Assembly: GCF_000697965.2 (NCBI RefSeq)
Contig: NZ_CP015880.1
Span: forward strand, 2,728,001 to 2,792,000
Reading direction: 5' to 3'
Length of the DNA: 64,000 nucleotides
Origin: Ensifer adhaerens
GTDB lineage: Bacteria > Pseudomonadota > Alphaproteobacteria > Rhizobiales > Rhizobiaceae
Of the stretch, positions 49,468-57,240 are shown one piece after another. The number at the start of each line of letters is the position of its first letter. Position 1 is the stretch's first letter. Position numbers and translations under genes: made by a program. The notes under the pieces were generated by a model. That model saw only the letters and a list, made by a program, of their open reading frames with translations, had not been told where the DNA came from and ran no database searches.

Positions 49468-50226
49468 TCAGTGTTGCTGAAGCCCGGTGATCATCGCGAT
49501 GATCTCGTTTTTGTCGGTCTTGGCCGTCTCACGGATGCCGATCTGCTTGCCGCGGCGCAGAACGCAGATGCGGTCTGCGAGCTTGAACACCTGATCGAGG
49601 CTATGGCTGATGATCAGTACGCCGATGTTGCGGCTTTTCAGCGATTCGACGATCTCCTCGACCTTGGCGGTTTCGGCAACGCCGAGTGCTGCCGTCGGCT
49701 CATCGAGCAGGATCAGCTTGCTCGCCCAATGGGTAGCGCGGGCAATCGCGACGCCCTGGCGCTGGCCGCCCGAGAGGTCGCGGATCGTCGCATGGGCCGA
49801 GGGGATGCGGACATCCAGTTCCTTCACCAGCGTTTCCGTCTCGGAAATCATCCGGCGACGGTCGAGCAGGCCGAAACGGTTTACCGGCTCGCGGCCGAGA
49901 AACATGTTCATATAGACCGTCTGCTGGTCGGCAAGCGCCAGATCCTGATAGACGACCTCGATGCCATGGGCGCGCGCCATCGTGGCGTTCGACATCGCCA
50001 CGGTCTGGTTTTCGATGGTGATCGTTCCCGAGGTCGGCGTGTAAACGCCGGAGATGATCTTGATCAGCGTCGACTTGCCGGCGCCGTTGTCGCCGACGAG
50101 CGCCACGATCTCGCCCGGACGGACGTCCAGCGAGAAGTTCTCGATCGCGGTGACGCCGCCAAAGGTCTTGCGGATGTCCTTCAGCTTGAGGACCGGCTCG
50201 CGTGCAGAATTCGTGTTCACGTTCAT
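49468..50226 (-). CDS. Sugar-type (CUT2) ABC transporter ATP-binding protein
   Basis: The 252-residue protein has a single ATPase domain: Walker A GDNGAGKST, signature LSGGQRQGVAIARA, Walker B LILLDEP, H-loop ISHS. Most CUT2 ATPases (RbsA/XylG) are about 500 residues with two fused domains; this is the single-domain FrcA-like form. It is the last gene of the island, 11 bp after the YhfX-like gene. Confidence 0.88.
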   Translation of the reverse strand: MNVNTNSAREPVLKLKDIRKTFGGVTAIENFSLDVRPGEIVALVGDNGAGKSTLIKIISGVYTPTSGTITIENQTVAMSNATMARAHGIEVVYQDLALADQQTVYMNMFLGREPVNRFGLLDRRRMISETETLVKELDVRIPSAHATIRDLSGGQRQGVAIARATHWASKLILLDEPTAALGVAETAKVEEIVESLKSRNIGVLIISHSLDQVFKLADRICVLRRGKQIGIRETAKTDKNEIIAMITGLQQH

Positions 50227-50237
50227 GACGTCACCCC

Positions 50238-54769: not shown

Positions 54770-56029
54770 TCAGTCCATGACGCCGCAGTAGCGCGCCATG
54801 AAGGCGGCAAATCCGACGATCCCGGCGAGGTATTCCTCCACCTCGACCCGTTCCTCGTAGGTATGGCAATTGCGGATGTCGCCGGGCGCGCAATAGACGG
54901 CAGGCACACCCAAGCGGTTGACGAAGAATGGCGATTCCGACCAGAAGGGCGCGCCTTCGATGACGCCGCGCCCAGCCATGGCTTCGGCCATGGCGGCTGA
55001 TAGCGCACCGACTTCGCCCGCCGTTTCGTCGATTTCAGCCGCCGTGCCGCCAAGCGCATGGTCGCGGCCGGCCGGATAGGAAAACTCGACCGTGATTTCC
55101 GGATCGGTGATCGCCGAGCGCACCGCAGCCTCGATCTCGGCCGCCGCCGTGTCCAGCGATTCCCCTGGCAACAGTTTGCGGATCAGCGACAGTGTGCAAC
55201 GCTCGGGCACGGCGATGTAGCCGCCGCCGGCAAGGCCGGTGATCAGCAGGAAACTGCGACCGATCAGCTTGTGCTCGGCCCGCGCGGCGATCTCGTCGGA
55301 GTGTTTCCAGAGAGCCGACATCGCCGCATGGCTGGCGCGCAATGCATCCTTGCCGAGTTCGGGTACGCCGAAATAGGCGGACTTGCCTGTAATCGTGATG
55401 TCGGCGATGAAAAATCCGATCTGCGCCGGATAAACCGAAAGCCGTGTCGGCTCGACATAGACGACGAAGTCCGGACGGACGATGTCACCGGTCTCGATGC
55501 GTTCGACCAGATCCTTGATACCGGCGGAGACACCGGTCCCCGGCTGACCGCTTTCCTCGTCGCCGACGAAGGCAAAGGCCACGTCCCCGGCCAACGCAAC
55601 GCCGGACTTGTCGAGCAGCGACAGCGCCGCCAGCGACGCGCAGATGCCTGCCTTCAGATCGCCCGAGCCGCGCCCCCAGACCGCGCCGTCGATGATCGGT
55701 GCAGCGAAGGGATCCTCGCGCTCGGTACCGGCCCAATGCTCGCGCCAGCCGTCAACATGCACCGTATCCGTATGGCCAATGAACAGCAGGCGTGGCCCCT
55801 TGCCGCGCCCCTTGCGCTCCGCCCAGACGTTCGGCCGACCCGGCAGGAACTCCGCCGTTTTCAAGCCTTCCAGGCCAAGGCGCTGCATCGTTTCGGCCAG
55901 AAAGGCGACGAAATTCGCCTCGTTGCCGGTAATGCTCTCACGCCCGATGGCGCCACGAAAAAGATCAATCGCCGTCTCGCGATCAAGCACCGCTCGCAAG
56001 CGCTCGACCAAGCCGTCATTCATCGTCAT
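54770..56029 (-). CDS. M20-family amidohydrolase/peptidase (ArgE/DapE-like)
   Basis: The 419-residue protein has metal and catalytic motifs in order: FIGHTDTVHVDG, GRGSGDLKAG, GDEESGQPG, and a C-terminal CHTYEERV. In the dimerisation domain the usual SAH-type motif reads SAYFGVPELGKDA, so a Tyr replaces the common His. Such enzymes deacylate N-acyl amino acids or cleave dipeptides. The ATG at 56029 has GGGAGG 8 nt upstream and overlaps the ROK gene stop by one base. It is part of the transporter island. Confidence 0.87.
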   Translation of the reverse strand: MTMNDGLVERLRAVLDRETAIDLFRGAIGRESITGNEANFVAFLAETMQRLGLEGLKTAEFLPGRPNVWAERKGRGKGPRLLFIGHTDTVHVDGWREHWAGTEREDPFAAPIIDGAVWGRGSGDLKAGICASLAALSLLDKSGVALAGDVAFAFVGDEESGQPGTGVSAGIKDLVERIETGDIVRPDFVVYVEPTRLSVYPAQIGFFIADITITGKSAYFGVPELGKDALRASHAAMSALWKHSDEIAARAEHKLIGRSFLLITGLAGGGYIAVPERCTLSLIRKLLPGESLDTAAAEIEAAVRSAITDPEITVEFSYPAGRDHALGGTAAEIDETAGEVGALSAAMAEAMAGRGVIEGAPFWSESPFFVNRLGVPAVYCAPGDIRNCHTYEERVEVEEYLAGIVGFAAFMARYCGVMD

Positions 56030-57240
56030 CACATCGCCTCCCGAAGCGCGTTGACGTTTGCCCGCGGCAGCGAAATCCGGCCATCGGGCGCATCGACCCC
56101 GAACAGGGTGTTGTGCAACTGACCGAGCCCGATCGCCGCCGCCCCGATGATCGCGGCGCGCGCGCCGAGTTCACCGGTCTCCACATTGACCGGATAGGGG
56201 AAGCACTGCGGCAGGAACGCTTTTACCCGCTCAAGCATTTCCGGCCGGAGCCCGATGGATCCGCCCAGGATGACCTTCTGCGGGTTGGCGATCGCGGCAA
56301 TCGCGGCAACGCCGGCTGCCAGATACCGCGCAGTGTCATCCAGCACCGTCAGCGCTGCCGCATCGCCCGCTTCTGCCTTGGCAAAGATGGTGGGCACGGC
56401 AACGGTCTTGCCCGAAAGCGCCGCGTAACGTTCCGCCATGCCATGCGAGGCAACCGCGCGCTCGAAGGCGCCGGTGCGCAGCGATTCCGCCTCGAACGGG
56501 TCGGCGCCGAGCGGCAGGAAACCCATTTCGCCGGCCGCATTGCTGACGCCGCGCACCAGATGGCCGCCGACCATCAGGCCGCTGCCGACGCCGGTGCCCA
56601 GCGCCACATAGGCGAGGTTGTCGATCCCCTGCCCCTGGCCCAGCCAGTTTTCGCCAAGGACGGCAAGATTGACGTCGTTTTCGAGCATGGCTCCAAAACC
56701 GAGCACCTCTTCGAAGGCGCCGACGACATCCATCGTGTCGAAACCGGCAATGTTCGGCGCAAGCAACACACGGCCGGTCTCGCTGCAGGGCGCGCCGGGA
56801 ACGCCGACCACCGCAAGCCGGATCTTCTCGCGAGCGATCTTCTGTCGGTCTGCCGCATCAAAGGCCATGGCAGCGATCTGCTCTACGACGAAGCGGCCGC
56901 CCCGCGGATCGGTCGGCGCCGTGTCTTCGGCAAAGATCTGGCAGGCGAGATCGGTGATCGCCACGCGCACCTTCGTGCCACCGAGGTCGACGGCGATGAT
57001 GAAGGCGGCATCGCACACCAGTTCGTAGGTGACGGCAGTGCGCCCGACATGGCCGCTGGTGCGCCCCGTCTCCTGCACCCAACCCTCTTCTTCGAGGCCG
57101 CGGACGATCTCCGAAATGGTCTGCTTGGAAAGGCCGGTCTGCTTCGAGATCGACGCACGCGAAATCGGACCGCCCTGGACGATCGCCTCCATGACGGAGC
57201 GCTGGGAGAACTTCCGGGAGATGCGCAAGCTGTCGTTCAC
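56029..57240 (-). CDS. ROK-family transcriptional regulator (NagC/XylR-like)
   Basis: The 403-residue protein has an N-terminal MarR-like HTH (about 10-70: ASISKQTGLSKQTISEIVRGLEEEGW) followed by a sugar-kinase-like ROK domain (VDLGGTKVRVAITD, LENDVNLAVLGE, GTGVGSGLMVGG). The zinc-binding Cys cluster usual in ROK proteins is missing: the segment after GEMGFLPLGADP contains no Cys and no His. It heads the island operon and probably represses it, with an imported sugar-like or related molecule as inducer. Confidence 0.88.
   Translation of the reverse strand: MNDSLRISRKFSQRSVMEAIVQGGPISRASISKQTGLSKQTISEIVRGLEEEGWVQETGRTSGHVGRTAVTYELVCDAAFIIAVDLGGTKVRVAITDLACQIFAEDTAPTDPRGGRFVVEQIAAMAFDAADRQKIAREKIRLAVVGVPGAPCSETGRVLLAPNIAGFDTMDVVGAFEEVLGFGAMLENDVNLAVLGENWLGQGQGIDNLAYVALGTGVGSGLMVGGHLVRGVSNAAGEMGFLPLGADPFEAESLRTGAFERAVASHGMAERYAALSGKTVAVPTIFAKAEAGDAAALTVLDDTARYLAAGVAAIAAIANPQKVILGGSIGLRPEMLERVKAFLPQCFPYPVNVETGELGARAAIIGAAAIGLGQLHNTLFGVDAPDGRISLPRANVNALREAM

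Follow-up and report, generated by a model that had tools for sequence, protein, structure and literature searches.

A seven-gene operon around a YhfX-like enzyme

The window analysed here is a stretch of 64,000 nucleotides from the genome of Ensifer adhaerens (contig NZ_CP015880.1, positions 2,728,001 to 2,792,000), and it carries on its minus strand, between 57240 and 49468, an operon in which a YhfX-like pyridoxal phosphate (PLP) enzyme is combined with a hydrolase of the M20 family, an ATP-binding cassette (ABC) importer of the CUT2 type and a regulator of the ROK family. Transcription runs from the regulator gene (56029-57240), which begins at a GTG codon and encodes an N-terminal helix-turn-helix with winged-helix matches and a Pfam ROK score of 156 bits, to a gene for an M20-family metallohydrolase with a clade of its own (54770-56032; Peptidase_M20, 90.8 bits). 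Two periplasmic substrate-binding proteins (SBPs) follow, the CUT2-type SBP1 (53682-54743; Peripla_BP_4, 145.8 bits) and SBP2 (52556-53620; Peripla_BP_4, 129.7 bits), which are 57% identical in alignment. The row is completed by the permease (51449-52426; BPD_transp_2, 147.5 bits), the YhfX-like protein of 399 residues (50238-51437) and a single-domain ATPase of 252 residues (49468-50226; ABC_tran, 114.5 bits). The first two genes overlap by 4 bp, and the later intergenic gaps measure 26, 61, 129, 11 and 11 bp. Starts were set at 50226 for the ATPase, 51437 for YhfX, 53620 for SBP2 and 54743 for SBP1, the longer open reading frames (ORFs) of the raw list being upstream extensions of these. An earlier note on this DNA had placed YhfX between the permease and ATPase genes and had put two binding proteins, an M20 hydrolase and a ROK regulator in the same operon; both statements hold, as all seven genes are present with Pfam support. 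The source genome (7.27 Mb in three contigs) has a single YhfX copy.

Conservation as one inherited unit

The gene set is one inherited unit and not a chance association. Relatives were gathered by a YhfX protein scan of a genome collection, from which the best 80 of 157, with a YhfX similarity of at least 69%, were taken as loci; they come from Ensifer, Mesorhizobium, Rhizobium, Shinella, Devosia, Thalassospira, Roseobacter relatives and others, and the closest named relatives by YhfX are Ensifer adhaerens ST2 (96%) and Ensifer sp. LC11 (93%). Gene order was scored in the 71 loci with enough flanking sequence (a YhfX start no earlier than base 6000 and at least 0.9 kb after the gene). The full order of ROK, M20, one or two SBPs, permease, YhfX and ATPase on one strand was found in 70 of them, with two SBP genes in 50; the sole exception is a decayed copy (L065). 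The pairwise distances of six operon genes over the 71 loci correlate at 0.78-0.96, a figure obtained with no species-tree control.

As the loci were picked by YhfX similarity, counts over genomes are the better test. Among 297 genomes of the family, YhfX occurs in 22 and the M20 clade (E <= 1e-80) in the same 22. Among 385 genomes of the class, the M20 clade (E <= 1e-60) occurs in three (G000, the source genome, G405 and G991), all with YhfX; a further YhfX at 54% in G880 has no operon partners, and two more matches near E 1e-4 were taken as other fold III proteins. The lone G880 gene (L128:9373-10650), which possibly has an independent role, sits among unrelated genes that read by eye as Lon, ClpX and HU. 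The neighbourhood check proposed in the earlier note thus came out in its favour: islands devoid of YhfX or M20 are not the majority, because the two genes co-occur in almost every copy, the exceptions being L065, a copy on plasmid pNGR234b and the lone G880 YhfX.

The patchy spread of the operon fits the occurrence of YhfX, at 70% or more, on 13 large alphaproteobacterial plasmid records (H1-H13), including one of Ruegeria sp. TM1040. Twelve of the 13 are also the 12 best M20 records (at least 51.8%), and the next M20 record stands at 32%. The thirteenth, pNGR234b of Sinorhizobium fredii NGR234, holds a truncated copy (L214:8632-12048) that retains the end of the permease (residues 208-325), YhfX, the ATPase and a SIS gene (81% to the SIS protein of L020); ROK, M20 and SBP genes were not found within 9 kb, and genes on the opposite strand stand in their place. 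In the copy of Rhizobium sp. RCAM05350 the YhfX, ROK, SBP2 and ATPase matches are split between frames and M20 reaches just 52%. At L065:5728-7870 the ROK and M20 genes are lost, and transposase-like ORFs with a serine hydroxymethyltransferase-like fragment (Pfam, 40 bits) are found instead. In the two copies lacking M20 that were inspected, L065 and NGR234, no other hydrolase was seen to replace it.

A conserved operator-like site

An operator-like site, AGTTCGGTAACAGAACGAATTAA, lies on the minus strand at 57252-57274 (an exact match at G000:C1:2785252-2785274) and ends 11 bp before the ROK start codon. The site upstream of ROK, AGTTCGGTNNNNGAACGAAYTAA, is exact in 61 of 74 upstream regions and has three mismatches or fewer in 72, the misses being L055 with five and L074 with four; no region among 370 letter-shuffled controls came within four mismatches. 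In 55 of these 72 regions it lies 10-13 bp from the ROK start, whose position was extrapolated from the window's protein. When whole genomes were scanned at two mismatches or fewer, the site was present in 21 of 24 operon carriers (the others being G064, G083 and G991) and in none of 12 non-carriers. All 21 have a copy some 1.2-1.3 kb ahead of the M20 gene, a position immediately before ROK, and a second site elsewhere occurs only in G164 (G164:C10:66836, two mismatches). A single stray match of this sort is expected, since the reversed pattern matches five times in the 36 genomes. The distribution between carriers and non-carriers suggests a regulon of one operon. The protein has the helix-turn-helix and ROK domain of a ROK repressor together with a conserved site in the promoter region of its own gene, and 57252-57274 is likely the operator to which it would bind. 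A sigma-70 promoter scan gave no sites, against 1.0 expected. A terminator-like hairpin between SBP2 and the permease (52520-52542, minus strand) came from a consensus scan and is weak, the region total being 7 against 6.0 expected.

The YhfX-like enzyme

The C-terminal domain of the window's YhfX exceeds the Pfam cut-off for PF21279 (YhfX-like_C; 88.9 bits, cut-off 27), and Ala_racemase_N is matched as well. The predicted structure has a pLDDT of 92.1, and the protein matches 4kbx, the crystal structure of E. coli YhfX available since 2014 (E=2.4e-69, 38% identical). Lysine 61 is invariant in 40 of 40 YhfX rows, which points to it as the PLP-binding residue. By profile comparison and predicted fold, the protein groups with D-threonine aldolase and D-serine dehydratase (DTA/DSD), where the list of structural neighbours is a re-ranking of Foldseek's best 1000 chains, beyond which further families may lie. 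A Pfam scan gave no match to PF14031 in the window's YhfX, and the H-x-C/D metal motif, present in the last 130 residues of seven of seven PF14031 proteins, was found in just two of the 40 YhfX rows, there elsewhere in the sequence. The reading of YhfX as an ordinary metal-dependent aldolase or dehydratase was rejected for lack of this motif. Many database records label relatives of YhfX "alanine racemase"; this identity is not supported, as PF00842 (Ala_racemase_C) is absent and hhalign against five alanine racemases gave a probability of 1.5 and an E value of 0.034. No account of YhfX function or of this gene set was found among the open-licence PMC papers searched (titles and abstract starts); the earlier note, too, knew of no described pathway with this set.

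The hydrolase and the importer

Residues H87, D125, E159, E160, E194 and H390, which we take to be the metal ligands and general base of the M20 protein, do not vary in any of the 76 aligned copies. At lid position 220, all 76 have a tyrosine, in contrast to the histidine of the related structures 7uoi and 3pfo. The description of the enzyme as ArgE/DapE-like therefore stands as regards the putative catalytic residues and falls short elsewhere: the ArgE/DapE model TIGR01910 scores 139.1 bits, below its cut-off of 217.6, and Tyr220 takes the place of the lid histidine. None of the best 25 of 47 NCBIfam models for the protein was above its cut-off. Taken together, the alignments make it likely that M20 is an active hydrolase with an unusual substrate cap. 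M20 enzymes usually bind a carboxylate adjacent to the amide that they split.

The Peripla_BP_4 binding proteins, BPD_transp_2 permease and ABC_tran ATPase identify the importer as CUT2 type. Its ATPase matches the RbsA, XylG and YtfR models in their first half only and is not of the tandem form of about 500 residues; two-domain ATPases are usual, though not universal, in CUT2 importers. The closest solved relatives of SBP2 are 2ioy, 6sw4 and 3g1w, at 66-71 bits for the protein alone and 80-83 bits through an alignment of 22 SBPs. The pocket was compared by sequence alignment to 2ioy and 3g1w. Of the 2ioy residues that we take to be ribose contacts (in ribose-binding-protein numbering), N190 corresponds to W248 and Q235 to D294, and D215 is retained as D273. 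Because two of these three contacts differ, the alignment suggests a ligand other than ribose, possibly one bearing an amine.

An accompanying SIS gene and other settings of YhfX

The only gene that recurs right after the ATPase in unrelated loci is a SIS gene; the other neighbour clusters, which were not each examined, looked like synteny or scatter. It directly follows the ATPase in 13 of the 80 loci, two of which (L065 and L067) look broken, and also in three of the 22 family carriers (L092, L094 and L100), in the deep branch L127, where all seven gene types stand in one row, and in the NGR234 remnant. The best NCBIfam model for the operonic protein is NagB-II, glucosamine-6-phosphate deaminase, at 274.6 bits (below the cut-off of 430), and its putative active-site residues are those of other NagB-II-like proteins. 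For the other SIS rows, the label "canonical" is backed by a check in the window's own genome only, where a separate amino-sugar cluster (L141; G000:C1:3838935-3843882) reads by eye as MurQ, a BadF-type kinase, NagB-II and NagA, with importer-like genes near it. In the tree, the 15 operonic copies from Alphaproteobacteria cluster as one (support 90/96).

Outside this group, a single record of the actinobacterium Embleya sp. NBC_00888 (L132) has in one row a ROK regulator, an amino-acid permease, a YhfX (44%), a ROK kinase and a SIS protein. A common clade of the operonic and Embleya SIS proteins is left undecided by the tree, in which the Embleya branch is too long. In the yhf clusters of E. 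coli, six other genomes of its phylum and Cetobacterium, YhfX accompanies phosphotriesterase-like and YhfT genes, and most of these clusters have a phosphopentomutase-like gene, which was not found in L118. In the Cetobacterium cluster, yhfT and the phosphotriesterase gene flank an amidase gene (L133:5994-7025), so that an amide hydrolase is again seen near a YhfX.

Comparison with known systems

The E. coli yhf operon (yhfZYXW-php-yhfUTS) resembles the window's operon in that a YhfX homologue adjoins transporter-like genes. It differs in its partners: when the eight yhf proteins were compared by tblastn with the whole window (E 1e-5), only YhfX matched, and yhfW, php, yhfU, yhfT and yhfS are thus not among its neighbours here. 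The six other yhf-type clusters contain no ORF that is matched best by the ROK, M20, SBP or permease protein of the window, and the partners of YhfX in Cetobacterium also differ from those of the window's operon.

Operons for CUT2 sugar ABC importers with a ROK regulator, such as frc, share with the window the SBP, permease, single-domain ATPase and regulator. The window differs from them by its two SBPs and by an amide hydrolase and PLP enzyme in place of a sugar kinase or dehydrogenase. The fructoselysine (frl) operon has an amino-acid permease, a kinase and a SIS protein. This layout is resembled by the Embleya row, which differs by its NagB-II-like SIS protein, its ROK-type kinase and a YhfX in place of an epimerase, and the window's operon differs further by its ABC importer.

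The closest counterpart in function is the ong pathway. There the deacetylase OngB and then OngC, a characterised fold III PLP enzyme, act on N-acetyl-glucosaminate (GlcNAc1A), OngC deaminating the amino-sugar acid after N-deacetylation (PMC9537276). In both systems an N-acyl group would thus be removed before a fold III PLP enzyme acts on an amine of sugar size. They differ in the fold of the hydrolase, in the use of a symporter there and an ABC importer here, and in KdgK and RidA, which occur there only. OngB is described as a D-aminoacylase-like barrel (PMC12017989), a fold other than that of M20, and the M20 protein was rejected as an OngB homologue. With an M20 hydrolase in place of an OngB-type deacetylase, the window's operon is not a member of the ong group.

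Genes surrounding the operon

On the plus strand a quinol/cytochrome oxidase-like cluster, named from sequence, heads towards the operon (45821-49035), and an oxidase subunit III gene also lies just past the ATPase in the closest relatives, L002 and L003. Divergent from the operon is a dimethylglycine/sarcosine dehydrogenase-like fusion with DAO and GCV_T domains (57598-60159, plus strand), which is followed by an aldo/keto reductase (60241-61170, minus strand). Since high-identity copies of the fusion and the reductase adjoin the operon only in L002 and L003, these two genes are probably outside its pathway.

A proposed route and its rivals

We read the operon, tentatively and with the possibility of error well in view, as a self-contained set of genes for breaking down an N-acylated amino sugar or a closely related compound, for instance an N-acyl amino-sugar acid. 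The gene set, its unity, the conserved site, the enzyme classes and the SIS link are computed, and from them we infer the repression, the ligand and every reaction. The ABC importer with its two binding proteins would take up the compound, and M20 would take off its N-acyl group. YhfX would then act at the amine-bearing carbon, most likely in a metal-free racemase or epimerase reaction turning an unusual amino sugar into a form that central metabolism accepts. A hexosamine kinase, housekeeping in the window's genome and dedicated in Embleya, would phosphorylate the product, and a SIS deaminase of the NagB-II type, from the operon or the nag cluster, would yield a ketose phosphate and ammonia. 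Until an inducer is present, ROK would repress this operon alone from the site at 57252-57274. An amino sugar is preferred over a plain amino acid mainly because YhfX accompanies an enzyme of sugar-phosphate type in Embleya, in most yhf clusters and in the SIS-bearing operons.

Several observations weigh against this route. The SIS gene is not seen after the ATPase in 67 of the 80 loci, the window's included (in L071 the sequence ends there), and none was found in the whole window at E 1e-5. Lineages without an operonic copy could use a housekeeping NagB-II, and NagB-II-like genes are present in 37 of 42 genomes, comprising 22 of 22 carriers and 15 of 20 without the operon; because such genes are common, this fallback is easily claimed and the argument is weakened. 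The alphaproteobacterial operons showed no kinase gene, nor did the search with the operator reveal one under the same control. The Embleya YhfX has no M20 beside it, the best match (30%) lying 0.8 Mb off. A plain N-acyl hexosamine has no carboxylate of the kind that M20 enzymes normally bind, the lid histidine is replaced by Tyr220, and to our knowledge no PLP-dependent amino-sugar epimerase has been described.

The strongest rival, possible but doubtful, is a sharper form of the conjugate idea of the earlier note. The substrate would be an amino acid linked to a sugar, either as an aminoacyl amino sugar or as an Amadori compound (a fructosyl amino acid, for example). M20 would split the amide or trim the amino-acid part, YhfX would racemise or deaminate the amino acid set free, and a SIS enzyme would take the sugar part. 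The usual action of M20 proteins beside a carboxylate, with the usual metal residues retained here, suits it, as do the fructoselysine-use layout of the amino-acid permease, kinase and SIS genes in Embleya and the position of the E. coli yhf genes next to frl genes. The SIS proteins, however, are NagB-II/GlmS-like and reach just 18.7 and 20.8 bits with the fructoselysine deglycase model, against 430, and with no amide hydrolase seen beside the Embleya YhfX the amino acid would there have to be set free in the final step for the enzyme to act on it. Import, amide cleavage by M20 and subsequent PLP chemistry are a fair reading of the set, but for the step on a freed amino acid an amino sugar fits at least as well, given the SIS genes and Embleya. 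An unlikely variant dispenses with the sugar: an N-acylated beta-hydroxy D-amino acid or dipeptide would be cleaved by M20 as an aminoacylase, YhfX would be a lyase or racemase akin to DTA/DSD and SIS a passenger. Against it, YhfX is without the metal motif of the DTA/DSD lyases, CUT2 importers and ROK regulators are typically devoted to sugars, and a SIS gene adjoins YhfX in two phyla. More improbable still is the use of GlcNAc1A, with M20 standing in for OngB and YhfX for OngC to give 2-keto-3-deoxygluconate (KDG). In the ong precedent, a deacylase and a fold III PLP enzyme deal in turn with a sugar-sized N-acetyl alpha-amino acid, which would suit M20 (PMC9537276), and YhfX shares the structural neighbourhood of fold III OngC. 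The barrel fold of OngB is not that of M20 (PMC12017989). Moreover, the operon genes include neither a KDG kinase nor a RidA gene, a deaminase step would leave the SIS deaminase superfluous, and YhfX is missing the dehydratase metal motif.

Implications for the YhfX family

The system joins a new pair of enzymes to a catabolic operon of the ABC-importer kind and is not categorically new. It is with little confidence that we combine two propositions, namely that YhfX is a metal-free branch of the DTA/DSD fold working on amino sugars and that the operon is an undescribed N-acyl-amino-sugar route into the glucosamine-6-phosphate pathway. The occurrence of the operon in Rhizobiales, Thalassospira and Roseobacter relatives and on plasmids suggests that its substrate is common both in soils and in the sea. 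The operon supplies YhfX with fixed partners, a regulator and a likely operator, so that its substrate could be found by a screen of SBP ligands or ROK inducers, and the function of YhfX becomes directly testable. If the combined proposal is true, it would give the family, including E. coli YhfX, its first function, as a PLP-dependent amino-sugar epimerase or racemase.

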